A stretch of 64,000 bases of DNA, taken from positions 844,412-908,411 of the forward strand of contig NZ_CP132335.1 in NCBI RefSeq assembly GCF_030758295.1, given 5' to 3'. The stretch comes from Pararhizobium sp. IMCC21322. GTDB lineage: Bacteria; Pseudomonadota; Alphaproteobacteria; Rhizobiales; GCA-2746425. How positions within the stretch are numbered: position 1 is the stretch's first letter; each line of letters starts with the position of its first letter. Under the pieces are notes generated by a model. The model was given only the letters and a program-made list of their open reading frames with translations. It was not told where the DNA came from and did not search any database. A program made the translations under genes and the position numbers. Below, piece by piece: positions 9,313 through 62,096 of the stretch.

Positions 9313-9684
9313 ATGAGCTACATCGACAGATTTATCCTCGCTGTGCCAGCCGCCAACAAGCAGACATTCATTGATCACGCAGACCGGGCCAACCGCTATT
9401 TCATGGACCAGGGAGCGGTTCGGGTTCGGGAATGCTGGGGTGACGACGTGCCTGACGGAAAGCAGACCGATTTTCGCAAGGCCGTTCAGGCCAAGGGCGA
9501 AGAGACGGTAGTGTTCAGCTGGATCGAATGGTCGGACAAGACGACCCGCGATGCCTGCATGGCTCAGATGGACGATGCATCGAAATCCGACGAACGGATC
9601 AATCCCGAGAAGAACCCGATGCCGTTTGATGGGATGCGCATGATTTACGGCGGCTTTTCACCCGTCGTCGAACTCGACGCCTGA
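9313..9684 (+). CDS. DUF1428 family protein
   Basis: A 123-residue alpha/beta dimeric ferredoxin-fold protein with the DUF1428 signature: MSYIDRFILAVP, VRVRECWGDDVPDGKQTDF, VVFSWIEWSDKTTRDA and FDGMRMIYGGFSPVVEL. Function is unknown; the fold is that of small monooxygenase-like or stress proteins. AGGAAAACGACA precedes the ATG. It is the first gene after the palindromic operator and is probably derepressed together with the TetR operon. Confidence 0.92.
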   Translation: MSYIDRFILAVPAANKQTFIDHADRANRYFMDQGAVRVRECWGDDVPDGKQTDFRKAVQAKGEETVVFSWIEWSDKTTRDACMAQMDDASKSDERINPEKNPMPFDGMRMIYGGFSPVVELDA

Positions 9685-9700
9685 TGGATTGGAAAACTGT

Positions 9701-10321
9701 ATGAGACCGATCAAGATCCAGACATTCATGAGCCTCGACGGCGTGATGCAGGCACCCGGCGGGCCCGACGAGGATACCTCCGGCGGGTTCACTCTCGGTG
9801 GGTGGTCGCAGCCCTATTGGGACGAGATGATGGGCGATATCATGGGCAAGGCGATGGCCGAAGAATACGACCTGCTTCTGGGCCGCAGGACCTATGACAT
9901 CTTCGCCGCGCATTGGCCGAATGCGGGCGATGACAATCCGGTGACGCAGAAGTTCAACAAAGCGACGAAGTACGTCGCGACCTCCGCACCAGACACGCTG
10001 GAATGGCAGAACAGTCAGGCGATCACCGGTGATGTCGCGGCGACCATAGCAGAGTTGAAGCAGGGCGATGGATTGCCGCTCAGCGTGCAGGGCAGCATCC
10101 AACTCACCCAGACACTGCTCGCACACGGACTTGCCGATGAGCTGTTCCTCTGGACATTCCCGGTCGTCCTCGGCTCGGGCAAGCGGCTCTTTGGAAACGG
10201 CACGGTACCGTTCGGTCTGGAACTGGGCGATGTAAAGACATCCACAACCGGCGTGACCATGGCCCGCTATCGCGCCGCTGGAGACGTCAAAATCGGCTCC
10301 TTCGCCTTGGAAGACCAGTAA
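9701..10321 (+). CDS. Dihydrofolate reductase-like (RibD C-terminal domain) protein
   Basis: A 206-residue protein with the RibD_C/DHFR-like fold: IQTFMSLDGVMQAPGG, LLLGRRTYDIFAAHWP, the central KQGDGLPLSVQGSIQLTQTL and LVLGSGKRLF-like FPVVLGSGKRLF. Family members bind NADPH and reduce heterocyclic substrates; the stand-alone members are poorly characterised. The ATG at 9701 is preferred; a TTG at 9689 would add four residues. It lies 16 bp after the DUF1428 gene in the same operon. Confidence 0.9.
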   Translation: MRPIKIQTFMSLDGVMQAPGGPDEDTSGGFTLGGWSQPYWDEMMGDIMGKAMAEEYDLLLGRRTYDIFAAHWPNAGDDNPVTQKFNKATKYVATSAPDTLEWQNSQAITGDVAATIAELKQGDGLPLSVQGSIQLTQTLLAHGLADELFLWTFPVVLGSGKRLFGNGTVPFGLELGDVKTSTTGVTMARYRAAGDVKIGSFALEDQ

Positions 10322-10336
10322 GGTGTAGGCCCCGCG

Positions 10337-10990
10337 ATGACAATCACGATCACAGCCTTCACGGCCTCACCGGATCGCGGGCGGGGTCTTGCGCGCGACA
10401 TGCCTGTCCGCTGGGCGCTCGAAGAGGTCGGCCAGTATTATGATATCCGGCTAGTCTCGTTCAAGGAAATGAAGGAGCCAGCCCATCTCGCCCATCAGCC
10501 GTTCGGGCAGATACCAACCTATGAGGAAGACGGACTGGTTTTGTTCGAATCCGGTGCCATCGTGCTGCATATCGCAGGGCGTTATCCAGGCTTACTGTCC
10601 GACGAAGAGAATGCGCGGGCACGGGCAATCGCTTGGATATTTGCGGCGCAGGCGACCGTGGAACCCCCGATTGTCGAACGCGAAACCGCGGGGTTTCTGG
10701 AACAGGATCGGGTTTGGCACGAACAGCGTCTGCCATTGATGGAGGAGCGCATCGAAACACGGCTGGCCCAACTCTCCGCCCGTCTCGGCGAGGCTGACTG
10801 GCTCCAAGGTGCATTCAGCGCGGGTGATCTGGTCATGGTGAGCGTGCTGCGCAGATTGAACGGATCGCCTCTCTTGAACGCGTTTCCGAACCTTTTGGCC
10901 TATGCCGCACGCGGAGAAGCGCGGCCCGCTTTCAAACGCGCATTTGCTGCTCAGCTGGCCGTCTTCGAAAGGCGATCCGCAGAAGTCTGA
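10337..10990 (+). CDS. Glutathione S-transferase family protein
   Basis: A 217-residue protein with a thioredoxin-fold N-domain (ITAFTASPDRGRGLARDMPV, GQIPTYEEDGLVLFESGAIVLHI, where the cis-proline and ESGAI bind glutathione) and an all-helical C-domain ending at about residue 210. The catalytic serine or tyrosine normally near position 10 is not obvious. It is 15 bp behind the RibD-type gene and probably the third gene of the operon governed by the palindrome. Confidence 0.88.
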   Translation: MTITITAFTASPDRGRGLARDMPVRWALEEVGQYYDIRLVSFKEMKEPAHLAHQPFGQIPTYEEDGLVLFESGAIVLHIAGRYPGLLSDEENARARAIAWIFAAQATVEPPIVERETAGFLEQDRVWHEQRLPLMEERIETRLAQLSARLGEADWLQGAFSAGDLVMVSVLRRLNGSPLLNAFPNLLAYAARGEARPAFKRAFAAQLAVFERRSAEV

Positions 10991-56040: not shown

Positions 56041-56241
56041 ATGCAAAATTCACGTTTCTGGATTGTTGGAGGCGAATTCACCTCAACGGATTTCAGCCAG
56101 GTTGTCGAAGGAACCGAACAGGTTGTCGGACCGATGGAATGCCGCAAGAAAGCAGAGCAATTGTGGCGCAACATGTCCGAGCAGGACCGTTCACAATGTA
56201 ACATCCGCTACTCGATCGTCAGCGAACCAGCTTTCGCCTGA
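56041..56241 (+). CDS. DUF4170 small protein
   Basis: A 66-residue protein: SRFWIVGGEFTSTDFSQVVE, VVGPMECRKKAEQLWRNMSE, QCNIRYSIV. This is the alphaproteobacterial DUF4170 family of unknown function. GAAAGGATAGTGCCC precedes the ATG. It follows aceA by 26 bp and precedes a strong terminator, so the two are probably one transcript. Confidence 0.88.
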   Translation: MQNSRFWIVGGEFTSTDFSQVVEGTEQVVGPMECRKKAEQLWRNMSEQDRSQCNIRYSIVSEPAFA

Positions 56242-56265
56242 TCGTTGAAAGGCAAACAGACCACG

Positions 56266-56298
56266 GCCTCCCGGCATGCGTGTCGGGAGGCTTTTTTT
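56266..56298 (+). terminator. Strong terminator after aceA and DUF4170
   Basis: GCCTCCCGGCA pairs with TGTCGGGAGGC around TGCG (one G-U), followed by TTTTTTT at 56292-56298. A textbook intrinsic terminator 24 bases after the DUF4170 stop. Confidence 0.95.
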
Positions 56299-56575
56299 AT
56301 GGAAGTTTATGTTTGGAATACAACTCGTCAGATTTGTTGTGCTACTCAATTTTTGCGAACAAATAACCGATGAGTTTCACTGCAAAATCACGGCCAACAA
56401 ATTACTGGTCCACTATCTTGCTTAGCTGAAGCCGCAGTCATTCCCTGCAACCTCGACTGCCGACAAATCAGATTGAAAAATGAGTAATAAATTCCAGCAG
56501 AGTCAAAAAATATCGTGGCTGGTATTGTTTGCCAGCTGAGGTAAATATATAGGTGTTTCAAAAAGGAGATGCCCT
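56299..56575. promoter_or_regulatory. Leader of the ATP-grasp/adenylating fusion gene
   Basis: 277 AT-rich bases hold the promoter. AAAAAGGAGA at 56560-56569 is the ribosome site for the TTG start. No operator recognised. The drop in GC compared with the aceA side fits an acquired gene (inference by eye, not computed). Confidence 0.45.
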
Positions 56576-59500
56576 TTGGTAGAGCTCGATGAAGGCTCCA
56601 CTCTTTTGCTGGAGGAGGCCGCACGCGCTGGTCTGAAAACTTCCGAAATTGAGTTAACAACAGATAACGTTGAGGCAATTTTTGGTCGTATTGAAACAGA
56701 GTTTCGTGGATTTGCTGTGCGTGGCGGTCTCATTTACGAGGAATCTCCGATTTATTCAAAGCGTACCGGTCATCTGTTAAACGGATATGCTGCTGAGACT
56801 GTGATGAGCCGATCTGCAACAAGGGTTGCGCTTGGCATGATCGATGTGCCGGTAGCCAACGGCCGTGCTCTTCGCTCCTCTGTTCTCGATGCAGTGTTCG
56901 CCTATGCTCGAAACATTCAATCGCCTCTCCTTATAGCGCCAGATGACCGTGAGCTTGGATCGGCTTGGCTCTGCGTGGATACCGCAGGTAGCTTTGAGAA
57001 TGTAGTTGGGATGTTGGCTACTATTTGCGATACAATATCAATTGAAAGCATCCCGACAGGTCGGACGTTTCGGTTCTTTTTCACTGTGGAGCAAGTGATC
57101 GGGGTAAAGGAAGTCTTGGACCCGCAAATTCCTCTTACTGGCGAGTCCCCAGAGCACATACCGAACAGATCTGTATTTTTTGCAGGCAAATGTGAGCCGC
57201 ACCCATCATACTTCAGGGAAGCTAGCCGTGTTCTTGGAGCTTTCCCGACACTGAAATACGGGGCAGTTGATATCCGGTTGCTGAGCCCTGATGAGCCTGC
57301 CAATTCATTCAATTTTCAAGTTTCTGCAGTTCATCCGAGAGTTGACTTTGGCCAAACTTGCTGGACGGCTGATGGACAGGAAATCAAGTTTTCTGCGGCA
57401 CTTGTTCGCATGTTGGCAGACATGCAGCCCGAAGGCATGACAGACCCAACACTTGCAAAGCGCGATCGGGGTGTTGAACGGTATGACATGGACGTCTTGG
57501 ACCTCATTCTGGCATCTCGAGAATTGGGGATGAATACTCGTATGGTGAACTCCGACTCAGCGGGAGGGTCTCGGCGTACACTTCAGATTGAAGTCGCTTC
57601 CACACCTGTCCAGTTCCGGAACGGCGCTATTCGCATAGTCGATCAAAATGGCAACACCAGCCATATTAACGACGACGCAGTGAAAATTACGGTCAATAAG
57701 CAAGCCACAAGAGAAATACTTGAGACGGTTGGACTGTCGGGTCCGGAAGGACGACAGTTTGCATCAAGCCAATTGGCTGAAGCACTGATCTATGCAGATG
57801 ATCTCGGCTACCCAATTTGTGTAAAGCCGTTGTCTGGTTCGCGGGGACGATTGGTCAGCACTGGCCTTACAACCAGCGCAGAAGTTGCAAAGGCCTTCCG
57901 AGAGGTAGCGAGCGCGTTTGGGGAAGTTATTGTAGAACGCAATGTTGATGGTGAAGTGGTGCGTTTATTCTACATGAAACCAGATATCTGCACCGCTCAA
58001 TATCAAGCTCGTCCTGCTGTTATTGGGGACGGGAAATCAAGTGTCATAAGCTTGATCGAACAACGCAATACCAACCGCGGTACAAGTCAGCGCAAACCGG
58101 CAATTGTTACGCGTGCTATGGTGGGGAATTTGGCGCATCGGGGAATTGATTTGGCAGATTGCCTCCCCACAGGTGAGAAGCTGATATTTGGAGCTACTTC
58201 ACATATATCATTGGGGGCAAGAGCGGCTGTTGCCTCTGATATCCATCCATCCTATCTGGAAAACGCCCGAAAAGCTTTCAAAGCGATTGATGGTCTGACA
58301 GTCGGTGCGATGGATATGATCGTAAAAAACCCAAGGCAACCCGCAACAAGCAAAAACCATTGGATCCTGGAGGTCAACAGTTCTGCAAACATAGTTGCAT
58401 TTCATCAATTCAAGGAGAATGCCAATCTTGATGGCTGCAAAGCCTTGCTGCGCCATGTAGAACGGGTACTGACCGAAAGAAACAATGCCGAAACTGATGC
58501 CCAAACAAATTCCATTGAAAATCCGACAGAGAACATCTCTCGGGCATTGGAGCATATGGAGCGCGCATCGCCTGTCAAAGTCGCAAATACGCAAGCCAAA
58601 CAACTGGAACAGGTGTTGCACCACGCCTGGCAACATACAGGCTTCTATCGCAGTCGGCTGAATTGCTTGTTTGAAGGCGGCGGATTTAATCCTGAAGCAT
58701 GGACCGATGTTCCATTGTTGACTCGCCAAGAAGCCCAAGAGCATCGACTCAGTCGGCGTGCATTCGAACTTCGGGATGGCAATCAGACTTATGCTTCCCG
58801 CACGTCTGGCTCCAGTGGAGTCCCGCTCGACATCACGTGGAACCTGGTCGCAACAGTGTCGACACGTGCAGCAGCGGAGCGCATGTATCGATGGCACGGT
58901 CTTGATCTTGATGCACCACTTGCGGAGATCAAGAGTTTTGGAGGCGTCGGCTACGACTTTCCCGGTGGTCGGGGCCCGCAAGGTTGGAGCCCATCATCAC
59001 CCAACGCAACCCGATTTAGGCTCTCGGTCAGTACACCAGTGAAGGATCAACTCGCTTGGCTGGCGCTTGTGAAAGCGCCATATCTCACGACCTATCCAAC
59101 CATGATACGTGAGCTTGCGTTGGAAGCCTTAAAACACAAAAGCACGTTACGTTTTGATGCTATCCTCACCATTGGTGAAGTTCTGACGCCGGAAATCAGG
59201 CAGCTTTGCAACGAGGCTTTCGGCGCGAGGGTGATAGACTCATATGGTTGTCAGGAAATAGGGAAATTGGCAATCCAGTGTGACCAATCTGAAAATTATC
59301 ACGTGTGCTTATCCAATGTTCTGTTTGAAGTGCTGGATGAAAATGGGCGACACGTGGCCCCTGGTGAAAGTGGGCGGGTAATTCTGACCAGCCTGTTCAA
59401 CTATGCCACGCCCTTTATTCGCTATGATATTGGCGATTATGCCCAGCTCGGGATGGGGCCTTGTCAGTGTGGTCGGTCGCTACCTGTATTAACGTCAATT

Positions 59501-59815
59501 GTGGGCAGGCGACGTAATATGGTGACCTTGCCGGATGGAGAAAAACGATGGCTATCCGGCACCGTATTAGCTGAACTGGGCTCGATGGTGCATGCTGAGC
59601 AATCCCGCCTGATACAGCGAACACATAATCTCTTCGAATTACAATTTGTTGCCAATGGCAACAGCATCGATTTCGACCCGAAAACCGTCGCGCGTCGCGC
59701 TACTGAACTTATCCATCCGGAAATTATTCTCGAACCAATTCGGGTCGACGCACTCAAACGCTCGAGCGGCGGAAAATTTGAAGACGTAGTTGGATTAGAG
59801 CAGGAGAAGCTCTAG
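56576..59815 (+). CDS. Two ATP-grasp copies fused to a PaaK/CapK-type adenylating domain
   Basis: A 1079-residue enzyme in three parts. Residues ~75-285 are ATP-grasp-like but degenerate (A121 where the active copy has K417; Q248 and S250 for E599 and N601). Residues ~360-635 are an intact cyanophycin-synthetase-like ATP-grasp: YPICVKPLSGSRG, VERNVDGEVVRLFY, VIGDGKSSVISLIEQRN, WILEVNSS. Residues ~655-1079 are a PaaK/CapK-like adenylate-forming domain: RTSGSSGVPLD (742-752), SYGCQEIG (889-896), YDIGDYA (950-956), CQCGRSLP (963-970). It could adenylate an acid and join it to an amine; the product is unknown. The start is a TTG after AAGGAGA. No operon partner. Confidence 0.88.
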   Translation: MVELDEGSTLLLEEAARAGLKTSEIELTTDNVEAIFGRIETEFRGFAVRGGLIYEESPIYSKRTGHLLNGYAAETVMSRSATRVALGMIDVPVANGRALRSSVLDAVFAYARNIQSPLLIAPDDRELGSAWLCVDTAGSFENVVGMLATICDTISIESIPTGRTFRFFFTVEQVIGVKEVLDPQIPLTGESPEHIPNRSVFFAGKCEPHPSYFREASRVLGAFPTLKYGAVDIRLLSPDEPANSFNFQVSAVHPRVDFGQTCWTADGQEIKFSAALVRMLADMQPEGMTDPTLAKRDRGVERYDMDVLDLILASRELGMNTRMVNSDSAGGSRRTLQIEVASTPVQFRNGAIRIVDQNGNTSHINDDAVKITVNKQATREILETVGLSGPEGRQFASSQLAEALIYADDLGYPICVKPLSGSRGRLVSTGLTTSAEVAKAFREVASAFGEVIVERNVDGEVVRLFYMKPDICTAQYQARPAVIGDGKSSVISLIEQRNTNRGTSQRKPAIVTRAMVGNLAHRGIDLADCLPTGEKLIFGATSHISLGARAAVASDIHPSYLENARKAFKAIDGLTVGAMDMIVKNPRQPATSKNHWILEVNSSANIVAFHQFKENANLDGCKALLRHVERVLTERNNAETDAQTNSIENPTENISRALEHMERASPVKVANTQAKQLEQVLHHAWQHTGFYRSRLNCLFEGGGFNPEAWTDVPLLTRQEAQEHRLSRRAFELRDGNQTYASRTSGSSGVPLDITWNLVATVSTRAAAERMYRWHGLDLDAPLAEIKSFGGVGYDFPGGRGPQGWSPSSPNATRFRLSVSTPVKDQLAWLALVKAPYLTTYPTMIRELALEALKHKSTLRFDAILTIGEVLTPEIRQLCNEAFGARVIDSYGCQEIGKLAIQCDQSENYHVCLSNVLFEVLDENGRHVAPGESGRVILTSLFNYATPFIRYDIGDYAQLGMGPCQCGRSLPVLTSIVGRRRNMVTLPDGEKRWLSGTVLAELGSMVHAEQSRLIQRTHNLFELQFVANGNSIDFDPKTVARRATELIHPEIILEPIRVDALKRSSGGKFEDVVGLEQEKL

Positions 59816-60004
59816 TTGGTGAATTTGGTTTGATAATTAAGCAAATCAGATTCAGTGTGGCAAAAAGTCAGTGCCTCAAAGACCGCCAATGCAACATATC
59901 ATGTTACGATGAACCAACCTGCTTCATGGCGCCGAAAAAACGCCGCCATATGGTGTGTTTAATGAATTCTAAGCCTCAGCATATGAAGAAGATAGTTTGG
60001 ATAT
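59816..60004. other. Intergenic, nothing recognised
   Basis: 189 bp between the fusion gene and the convergent barrel protein. No gene, hairpin or terminator could be supported. Confidence 0.35.
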
Positions 60005-60802
60005 CTATTCTGCTATAAATCCATCTTTATCTTCATAACTGCCAGTAGCATCAGACGCTGCCGCTAAAAACAAATCGAAATGATCGACTGGATCGTCTTC
60101 TCTCATGCGGTCGATCAATGGTTTCTGAGGACCAAAATAGATTCGCACTCCGACCTGACCACCAATGTCATCTTCACTGAAGGAGGCTTCACCGAACAAT
60201 GAAAGGCTGTTGTCATTAATCGGCGTGAGCCATTCGCCACCGACAGATCCAATATGATCAACGTCGCCCGGCAAGTATTTGTGCTGCACGTAGAGCCGCA
60301 GATTATCATCAGCAAAATAGGACAGACTGGTCTTGGAGAAAAATCCTTCTCCCAAGTCGCCGAATTGGTAACCGGCCAAACCTGATAACATCAAGCGATC
60401 AATATAAAATTCTGTCTCTACACCCACTCTGGTTTGGTCGCCCCCGCCATCAGCAGATGCGTGCGCAAACTCTCCGTAGAGGCCCAGCAATGCGGTATCA
60501 GGATCGCGCCAAAAAAGATGTGCCGCGCCACCACCTGCAAAGTCACCGTCGACGATTCCGAGCATTCCGTCGAACTGCGCGCCCCAAGAAAAGGACAAGG
60601 GGATGGAAACTGAGCCAACAGCTGCAACGGATTCAACGCCGAACATATGATTCCAGCGGATGTCAAACTTGCTATTCAACTCGGAGACGGCTGGCTTGGG
60701 ACCGGGCAAAGGCTGAGAGTTCTCAAGATCGGCAGCAACAAGCGGCTGTGCAATCAAACTTACAAGTGCTGTTGAGGATAACAACCAGTGAGACTTTGGC
60801 AT
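60005..60802 (-). CDS. Outer-membrane beta-barrel-like protein
   Basis: A 265-residue protein with a signal peptide (LLSSTALVSLIAQPLVAA) followed by alternating polar and aromatic strands (SIPLSFSWGAQFDGMLGIVD, LLGLYGEFAHASADGGGDQT, DNLRLYVQHKYLPGDVDHIG) of the kind seen in barrel proteins, and GQVGVRIYFG near the end as a possible final strand. The last 40 residues are acidic and helical, so the barrel is not at the C-terminus. No specific family recognised. It converges with the fusion gene. Confidence 0.65.
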   Translation of the reverse strand: MPKSHWLLSSTALVSLIAQPLVAADLENSQPLPGPKPAVSELNSKFDIRWNHMFGVESVAAVGSVSIPLSFSWGAQFDGMLGIVDGDFAGGGAAHLFWRDPDTALLGLYGEFAHASADGGGDQTRVGVETEFYIDRLMLSGLAGYQFGDLGEGFFSKTSLSYFADDNLRLYVQHKYLPGDVDHIGSVGGEWLTPINDNSLSLFGEASFSEDDIGGQVGVRIYFGPQKPLIDRMREDDPVDHFDLFLAAASDATGSYEDKDGFIAE

Positions 60803-61019
60803 AAAGATAATTCCTTCTTTCCCGCAATAGACCGTTTGACGAAGGGCACGTCAAGTAATCAAAGCGGTTTTGTAACTGCTTTTTTCTTGTTGAGGTTGTG
60901 TGATGTATTTTTGCAGCGGTTCGTAATTTTTGACCCGTCATACATGGCCCCGCTCTCGGGTCTTTTTCGAAGGCCGGGAGTAAGCACTATGCAACACATA
61001 TGTGTTTCCGTTTGCGCAG
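60803..61019. other. Intergenic, upstream of the barrel-like gene
   Basis: 217 bp holding the promoter of the barrel-like protein on the minus strand. CCCGCTCTCGGGTCTTTTT near 60950-60968 could be a small hairpin with a T run, but it is imperfect. Nothing else supported. Confidence 0.35.
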
Positions 61020-62096
61020 CTAAAGGTCATTTTTCGAGCTGCGCCGCGCCATACCCAGCATGATAGGGGCAAGAAATGTCAGGATGAAAAGCCGCATCAC
61101 ATGGTGGGCGGCAACAAAGGCCGGGTCAGCATCCAGAGACACCGCCATGGCCGACATGGTTTCCACCCCGCCAGGTGCAAATGCAATCAACAGATGGCTG
61201 AATGGCGCGTCAATGAATAAAGACACGCACCAGGCAGCGAACGCCGAAATACTAAAAGCTGCCAAAGTCACCACAGCCCCGGCTGCAAATGCGCGCTTCA
61301 ACTGGGCCAGTGTCACCCCGGAAAACCGGGTGCCGATCAAGGCGCCCAGTGTAATAAACGCAGGTATCGCCACATAGGGAGACACCGTCCCGTCAATGGC
61401 ACCGGTAATGTGGCTTCCGGTGGACCAGATCAGCCCACCCAGAAGATAGGCTGCCGGAAGGCGGAGCCGGTTGAAAACATAGCCTATCGCAAAAGACATG
61501 ATGAGGCTCAGCCCAAACATGGTCAGTGGCATGATGGCTGCTTGGGCAGCCACGGCGTCAGCCTCAAGTCCGATCAGCACCACAGCAAACGGCACTAGTA
61601 TGGTCAGAGCCAGAAGACGCAGACTTTGAATGACACTGATGGATGTCAGGTCGCCACTGGTCTGGGCCGACAGGCCAAGAACGTAGCTCAAATGGCCAGG
61701 AACAACCGAGAGCAGAGCCGTCATCGGGTCAAAATGCCAGAATTTTTGCAGCAGCCAGCGACATCCCACAATGATCACAACCAGTGATAGGCCCAGGATT
61801 AAAAAACTCAGCGGCCACTGCTTTGCCGTCTCAACCACATCCGGCGTGACACCTGCCCCCATGGTGAGGCCGATTATGACAAAGCACATATCGCGCAGAT
61901 GCCTTGGAACATTGACCTTCATCCCGAACAAGCCAACGCATGTCACGGCCAGGGATGACCCGATCAGAAAGGGCGCGGGAGCCCCGAACCAATAAGCTGC
62001 GCCAGCACCAAACGCTGCCGTCAGCAATGTTATTGCAACGGTCTGGAAGCTCTGCTGCCACGATGGAGCAGATTCGGTGGAAGGGTCAGAAATCAT
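61020..62096 (-). CDS. AbrB-family membrane protein (putative ammonia monooxygenase-like)
   Basis: A 358-residue protein with about ten membrane helices in two similar halves: WFGAPAPFLIGSSLAVTCVG and LRLPAAYLLGGLIWSTGSHI, each followed by MCFVIIGLTMGAGVTPD-like and IPAFITLGALIGTRFSG segments. This is the internally duplicated AbrB family, often misnamed ammonia monooxygenase; it is probably a transporter. The start at 62096 gives the family N-terminus. The frame is open to 62186. Confidence 0.88.
   Translation of the reverse strand: MISDPSTESAPSWQQSFQTVAITLLTAAFGAGAAYWFGAPAPFLIGSSLAVTCVGLFGMKVNVPRHLRDMCFVIIGLTMGAGVTPDVVETAKQWPLSFLILGLSLVVIIVGCRWLLQKFWHFDPMTALLSVVPGHLSYVLGLSAQTSGDLTSISVIQSLRLLALTILVPFAVVLIGLEADAVAAQAAIMPLTMFGLSLIMSFAIGYVFNRLRLPAAYLLGGLIWSTGSHITGAIDGTVSPYVAIPAFITLGALIGTRFSGVTLAQLKRAFAAGAVVTLAAFSISAFAAWCVSLFIDAPFSHLLIAFAPGGVETMSAMAVSLDADPAFVAAHHVMRLFILTFLAPIMLGMARRSSKNDL

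Follow-up and report, generated by a model that had tools for sequence, protein, structure and literature searches.

A Pararhizobium gene fusing pseudo-ATP-grasp, ATP-grasp and PaaK-like modules, and its pairing with a convergent gene for a secreted protein

Results

The fusion gene and its conservation

A 64,000-nucleotide stretch of the genome of Pararhizobium sp. IMCC21322 (contig NZ_CP132335.1, positions 844,412 to 908,411; hereafter the window) contains an uninterrupted open reading frame (ORF) in which two ATP-grasp-like modules are followed by a PaaK-like adenylate-forming module. This fusion gene is convergent with its neighbour, which encodes a protein that is secreted and probably resides in the outer membrane (Table 1). 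An earlier note, made from the sequence alone, had described the fusion as a three-part ATP-grasp/ATP-grasp/adenylating enzyme. The single frame was borne out, as were the positions of K417, E599 and N601 and of the motifs TSGSSG (743-748) and YDIGDY (950-955). The same note had missed the partner gene altogether, and its first ATP-grasp proved to be without catalytic residues. Since this first module lacks both lysines, the Glu and the Asn, the chain holds two kinds of activating chemistry whose active-site motifs are intact, not three active parts. In sum, what the earlier note observed was partly confirmed and what it concluded was partly supported.

Table 1. Positions in the window of the fusion gene, its modules and the convergent partner gene.
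Feature	Coordinates	Strand	Description
Fusion gene	56576..59815	+	Single ORF, 1079 codons
N-terminal pseudo-ATP-grasp module	56576..57475	+	Residues 1-300; ATP-grasp homology, catalytic residues lost
ATP-grasp ligase module, cyanophycin-synthetase/GshAB type	57476..58450	+	Residues 301-625; catalytic residues present
Linker	58451..58555	+	Residues 626-660; 60% identical between orthologues
PaaK-like adenylate-forming ligase module	58556..59812	+	Residues 661-1079; TSGSSG, YGCQE, RYDIGD, CQCGR, GGK1067
Convergent partner gene	60005..60802	-	265 aa; secreted, probably outer-membrane protein; family alignment of 21
Two-gene unit (fusion and partner)	56238..61035		87 bp in its place in a close relative (G002)

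An orthologue of the fusion was found in CP018226.1 ('Rhizobiales bacterium IMCC20636', order Hyphomicrobiales), matched over residues 1-1076 at 75% identity. The 1078 aligned codons ran full length without a break, and the frameshift near residue 640 that the earlier note had named as grounds for rejecting a true fusion was absent from this relative. The TTG start at 56576 is preceded by AAGGAG with 7 bases between; an ATG at 56569 lies in another frame in the window but shares the frame in CP018226.1. The ratio of nonsynonymous to synonymous substitution rates (dN/dS) between the two orthologues was 0.26 for residues 1-300, 0.17 for residues 301-625 and 0.10 for residues 661-1079, compared with 0.01-0.13 for five neighbour genes. 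The synonymous rate (dS) was near 1 throughout (0.83-1.22 in the modules, 0.71-1.16 in the five neighbours). The fusion is thus under purifying selection, with its first two modules evolving faster than the neighbours (dN/dS of 0.26 and 0.17 versus 0.01-0.13) yet still constrained. The N-terminal part was the fastest-evolving of the three modules (66% identity between orthologues). As far as could be judged by reading, the gene surroundings look alike in the two genomes, names such as isocitrate lyase being unscanned. No carrier protein was seen by eye among the ORFs of the window, where the partner was the one neighbour scanned against Pfam.

Modules of the fusion protein

The N-terminal module aligned with the ATP-grasp profile at a probability of 95.6% (hhalign; E 1.2e-8 over 253 columns). 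In both orthologues, the two lysines that bind ATP and the Glu and Asn that bind metal in an active ATP-grasp enzyme were substituted (K375 by R, K417 by A, E599 by A, and N601 by H or Q, numbered by the middle module), and in the window copy the central region is 52 residues short. Equivalents of E454, R463 and D580 are retained. This pattern of residues marks the module as a dead ATP-grasp, or pseudo-enzyme.

The middle module retains K375, K417, E454, R463, D580, E599 and N601; of these, the two lysines, E599 and N601 are present in both orthologues. It matched the NCBIfam cyanophycin synthetase family TIGR02068 over residues 308-603 (E 1.2e-43), and its best solved relatives were the cyanophycin synthases of the PDB (2.7e-20). 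The catalytic residues are shared with CphA, and identity to the cyanophycin-synthetase-sized protein of the host's own genome was ∼30%. The fusion differs from CphA in that the Pfam scan, which returned one match above cut-off, found neither the Cyanophycin_syn N domain nor the Mur-ligase domain. With these two domains missing and a TIGR02068 score of 149.3 bits against a cut-off of 850, identity as a cyanophycin synthetase was rejected.

ANL and PaaK-like enzymes are recognized by a P-loop, a YGxxE-type motif, RYDxGD and a C-terminal lysine. All four were found in the C-terminal module (TSGSSG, YGCQE, RYDIGD, and GGKF with K1067), which was 81% identical between orthologues. The best PaaK-type NCBIfam match within the fusion (9.1e-33 at residues 825-978) fell far below its curated cut-off. 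Scores for the DVU_1553 family of AMP-dependent coenzyme A (CoA) ligases (NF045666; 6.3e-34, 117.5 bits against a cut-off of 300) and for PaaK proper (TIGR02155; 34.2 bits against 646.3) were likewise far too low, and both identities were rejected. Among solved structures, the top three matches by E-value were 9s3l (named phenylacetate-CoA ligase), AjiA1 (8.6e-16) and the 6siw set (9e-15), the alignment of the latter two spanning roughly residues 23-339 of 439. The entries 6SIX and 6SIY are NatL2, to which AjiA1 is 90% identical (PMC12519233). NatL2 and ClxA form an ester or amide directly from the adenylate (PMC7204872, PMC12519233), and the C-terminal module resembles AjiA1 and NatL2 by sequence match. 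A C-terminal extension locks NatL2 in its closed form; in the fusion, 12 residues remain after K1067. We know of no fused form of ligases of this type.

The convergent partner and its pairing with PaaK-like genes

The partner has a signal peptide, seen by eye, and belongs to a family in which two signatures are near-invariant across 21 aligned members: AVSxxNxK, close to the start of the mature protein, and KxLxxRxRxDDP, close to its C-terminus. A barrel fold is tentatively suggested by the signal peptide, by the pattern of the alignment and by a periodicity like that of beta strands (z of 2.9 for the window partner, against -0.02 for a PaaK-like control), and the protein is probably an outer-membrane protein. 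AlphaFold models built from two-row alignments had a predicted local distance difference test score near 30 in both cases (32 for the partner). Omp25-type proteins have mature ends resembling ...A|AD, and in many partner copies the signal peptide, by eye, ends in the same way. The peptidoglycan-tethered outer-membrane barrels AopA1, AopA2 and AopB occur in the same order, Hyphomicrobiales (PMC11527210), but no sequence homology to the partner family was shown.

Pairing was counted by taking every PaaK-like ORF in the chosen loci and looking up to 1.5 kb away for a partner. Of 40 PaaK-like ORFs from outside the genus, 10 were convergent with a partner gene, none was divergent or on the same strand, and 30 were partnerless. 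For the order search this count covers 17 of 19 non-genus PaaK-like matches, taken with wide flanks; of the two left out (G042:C177 and G626:C1), G042:C177 is convergent with a partner match by coordinates. The ten convergent pairs (G662, G041, G477, G010, G042, G583, G025, G050, G607 and G944) span nine families of the order, G477 and G010 being of one family. The gap between the two genes was 7-108 bp in nine pairs and 1259 bp in one. Neighbours beyond the pair mostly differed between loci, except in G010 and G477 (one genus) and for gene clusters c34 and c16. Inside the genus, 17 ORFs were convergent, 7 divergent (all in multi-copy arrays) and 3 partnerless, a count of 27 that includes broken or cut gene pieces (L025 29-448; L109 9381-9767 and 9798-10679) and maybe spurious partner ORFs (L025 8662-9021; L112 10391-11260).

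Protein distances among the PaaK-like members of the pairs, all chosen as convergent neighbours, agreed with those among their partners (r = 0.83 for 27 pairs, 0.77 for 18 pairs within the genus and 0.83 for 9 outside it), a correlation reached by 0 of 2000 permutations in each set.

The fusion and its partner are also absent together from this site. In two relatives (G002 and G003) the flanking genes are direct neighbours and both the fusion and the partner are lacking between them, with 87 bp and about 90 bp left in their place; G004, whose flanking genes lie on different contigs, was left out of this comparison. The G002 flanks are 93% and 90% identical to those of the window and 86% and 74% identical to those of CP018226.1. 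Given this closer relationship to the window, joint loss in G002 would be the simpler reading, with joint gain as the alternative.

Distribution of the fusion and of its modules

Genome searches scored a few candidates per genome (at most five in the order search and four in the phylum search), so that copy counts are lower bounds. Two of the 5 genomes searched in the host's own family carry the N-terminal and ATP-grasp parts together at full length, and no further genome among those searched held the three-part chain. Among 385 class genomes, the N-terminal part was found in its own genome and as one weak partial match inside a cyanophycin-synthetase-type protein. Relatives of the ATP-grasp part (E<=1e-22) were present in 9 of 372 class genomes; 5 of the 8 besides the host lie in frames of 909-1026 aa. 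Relatives of the PaaK-like module were present in 19 of 297 order genomes (E<=1e-25) and 22 of 398 phylum genomes (E<=1e-20). In the order search, 2 of the 39 PaaK-like matches listed lay in frames longer than 1000 aa, both being this fusion gene. Among the 27 matches listed from the phylum search, the longest other frames were in G904 (719 aa) and G970 (681 aa), with the PaaK-like stretch at residues 115-536 of 537 in the G904 ORF and 245-678 of 678 in the G970 ORF. Apart from the two orthologues, none of the matches listed in either search was in a frame longer than 719 aa. Neither ORF had an ATP-grasp match at E<=0.05 to the local profile, the one search made of the part preceding PaaK. No relative of the fusion was detected in viral contigs using six peptide patterns, and none of 224 matching plasmid records had one place covering 80%.

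The host genome carries at least 10 PaaK-like copies. Seven stand-alone PaaK-like genes form an array (4117583-4134616) in which they are interspersed with six partner copies and a short fragment. Arrays include broken members: in L109 (G003), around 9381-10679, one PaaK-like copy has an in-frame TAG.

The best plasmid relatives of residues 1-640 were ATP-grasp proteins of Azospirillum (NZ_CP039640.1 and NC_016585.1), 30-32% identical over residues 304-630 or 304-610, which includes the stretch preceding the ATP-grasp; they differ from the fusion in being stand-alone and of a single module. The copy in Azospirillum sp. TSH100 adjoins genes for an acyl carrier protein, a hydrolase-like protein, a YheC/D ATP-grasp and type I secretion. 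This island (L088:4693-10325) also holds a glycosyltransferase gene and a weakly sulfotransferase-like gene, and that of A. lipoferum (L089) resembles it by eye. On an Agrobacterium tumefaciens plasmid (CP048491.1; L090:3019-8001, +), a 1660-residue protein combining a YheC/D ATP-grasp with two cyanophycin-type ATP-grasp stretches adjoins type I secretion genes. In Microvirga ossetica (NZ_CP016620.1; L092:4452-7466, +), a 1004-residue 'CapA family' protein with a related ATP-grasp also lies near type I secretion genes.

Several loci departed from the simple pair. One PaaK-like gene without this partner is convergent with an OMP_b-brl protein (L094), and another is followed on the same strand by an IAT_beta protein (L095). 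In L151:6506-11515 (G944), four genes stand in a row: PaaK-like, partner, glycosyltransferase-like and partner again. In L104:4130-7402 (-), a pair adjoins a TIR-nSTAND-Sel1 protein, a kind of protein that occurs in immunity systems.

Discussion

Proposed function and precedents

We tentatively favour, at somewhat less than an even chance, the reading that the gene encodes a lineage-specific fusion enzyme for the carrier-free synthesis of a small acyl-amino-acid amide or ester, working with the partner. The middle ATP-grasp module would phosphorylate an acid and couple it to an amino acid; the C-terminal module would then adenylate the resulting carboxylate and hand it on to an amine or hydroxyl, although the two steps may run the other way round. 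The pseudo-ATP-grasp at the N-terminus may be retained as a scaffold or binding domain. If the fusion acts together with the convergently encoded secreted, probably outer-membrane protein, the product would be intended for the outer membrane, transported by it or attached there.

Carrier-free ATP-grasp plus adenylating chemistry has precedent, since E-64 and cystargolide/belactosin are made in this manner by separate enzymes. In the NRPS-independent route to E-64 (that is, one independent of nonribosomal peptide synthetases), the ATP-grasp ligase acts first and the amide bond synthetase next (PMC12568646). These enzymes, Cp1B and Cp1D, provide both chemistries as the fusion does, but are separate fungal proteins, and the main text of that paper contains none of the words fused, fusion, bifunctional or didomain (PMC12568646). 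In cystargolide and belactosin biosynthesis, an adenylate-forming amide synthetase and an ATP-grasp (CysC/CysD and BelV/BelU) make a short peptide; for cystargolide, CysC acts before the ATP-grasp CysD (PMC11427300). These too are separate proteins, and CysC has been likened to CfaL-type amide synthetases (PMC11427300). Predicted non-ribosomal peptide operons bring ATP-grasp peptide ligases and acyl-CoA ligases together in the same kinds of operon, but as separate genes, with other partners and by prediction alone (PMC2922099). In the fusion, both chemistries are encoded in one chain and would act in succession. The earlier note did not recognise the pairing as a characterised enzyme, and searches of the open-licence literature of PubMed Central found no characterised fusion of this sort.

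A broader reading is possible, although we consider it more doubtful than the first. In it, a PaaK-like enzyme and a convergent secreted, probably barrel-forming protein would constitute an undescribed envelope system, with arrays of co-evolving pairs in which each enzyme makes a ligand or modification fitting the outer-membrane protein paired with it. In the window, the enzyme would have been upgraded by fusion to a tandem of pseudo and active ATP-grasps, allowing it to build its own acyl-amino-acid substrate.

A number of observations weigh against the favoured reading of the enzyme and its partner. The best PDB match of the PaaK-like family profile was a CoA ligase, 4r1l (2.4e-37), ahead of AjiA1 (6.6e-33). 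At least two paired PaaK-like proteins (G041 and G050) have a degenerate P-loop, so catalysis may not hold for all pairs. The partner had no Pfam or NCBIfam match, and its profile retrieved alanine racemases alone from the PDB (E 0.13-0.26), which were judged chance. Against four OMP_b-brl-type proteins, the partner profile aligned at the signal peptide alone (probability 13%), and the median beta periodicity z of the partner family was 1.03 (n = 49) versus 3.15 in those four. Of the PaaK-like ORFs outside the genus, nearly all those from the phylum search (22 of 23) and about half of those from the order search (8 of 17) were partnerless. Partner genes, for their part, are also found away from PaaK-like genes: the family had matches in 39 of 297 order genomes (E<=1e-5), compared with 19 of 297 for the PaaK-like family (E<=1e-25), and its neighbours at such places were ordinary where scanned. 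Shared descent accounts for part of the distance correlation. Lastly, convergent genes are not co-transcribed.

The degenerate proteins themselves (L096:6308-7642 and L107:7225-8625) retain the Asp of RYxxxD and the C-terminal lysine; they are possibly non-catalytic members of the family.

Alternative explanations

An unlikely alternative, though one with several loci in its favour, is that the fusion serves envelope-polysaccharide decoration by preparing an N-acyl or aminoacyl substituent for a surface sugar, a role proposed for CapK-like enzymes of polysaccharide loci. Distant PaaK-like relatives stand with Polysacc_synt_3, Wzy_C and a glycosyltransferase (L153), with two glycosyltransferases (L148) and with a Polysacc_synt flippase (L152). 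In three paired loci a cluster c34 protein is encoded divergently from the PaaK-like gene, with hexapeptide repeats in both copies scanned. Glycosyltransferase-like genes lie between the pair in G607 and beside it in G025, in G626 (of the same cluster as those two) and in G944, the last a weak Pfam match that is 51-54% identical to two members of that cluster. Furthermore, L152:5471-8161 (G902) has a RimK-type ATP-grasp gene 46 bp upstream of its PaaK-like gene, and thus both chemistries unfused. This ATP-grasp matched Pfam RimK at 2e-8; it also seeded the local ATP-grasp profile, and its E-value from that profile is a product of construction. It had no significant BLAST similarity to the fusion, however, and was seen in 1 of 54 genomes of its order. 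Moreover, no ORF beside the pair in the window or its orthologue read as a sugar gene when inspected, unscanned, by eye.

Rather unlikely, too, is a plain acyl- or aryl-CoA ligase fused to an ATP-grasp ligase, whose CoA thioester would feed catabolism or an acyltransferase encoded elsewhere. The 4r1l match agrees with this, as does the fact that the best NCBIfam matches are CoA ligases (the DVU_1553 family and, at 2.9e-18, haloarchaeal PaaK), but the scores of 117.5 of 300 and 34.2 of 646.3 (for PaaK) are far under their cut-offs. Nor would a catabolic enzyme be expected to track a secreted protein.

It is improbable that enzyme and partner merely travel as a compact two-gene cassette with unshared functions, the fusion being an ordinary metabolic enzyme. 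The site empty in two relatives, the lack of co-transcription and the partner genes found without PaaK-like neighbours would all fit such a passenger effect. Pairing in nine families outside the genus in mostly different surroundings argues against it, as does the fact that distances agree among paralogues within a single genus too (r 0.77).

An artefact, whether two genes merged by sequencing error or a gene in decay, is barely credible and was rejected: nothing beyond the faster evolution of the N-terminal part (66% identity) could be cited for it, while the frame is undivided in a second genome at 75% identity and the modules have dN/dS values of 0.10-0.26.

Should the fusion indeed be a carrier-free enzyme working with its secreted partner, it would represent a single-chain form of the amide and ester assembly for which chemists at present combine two enzymes. 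It would also offer a first handle on a recurrent pairing, in the Hyphomicrobiales, between a family of cytoplasmic ligases and one of secreted proteins.

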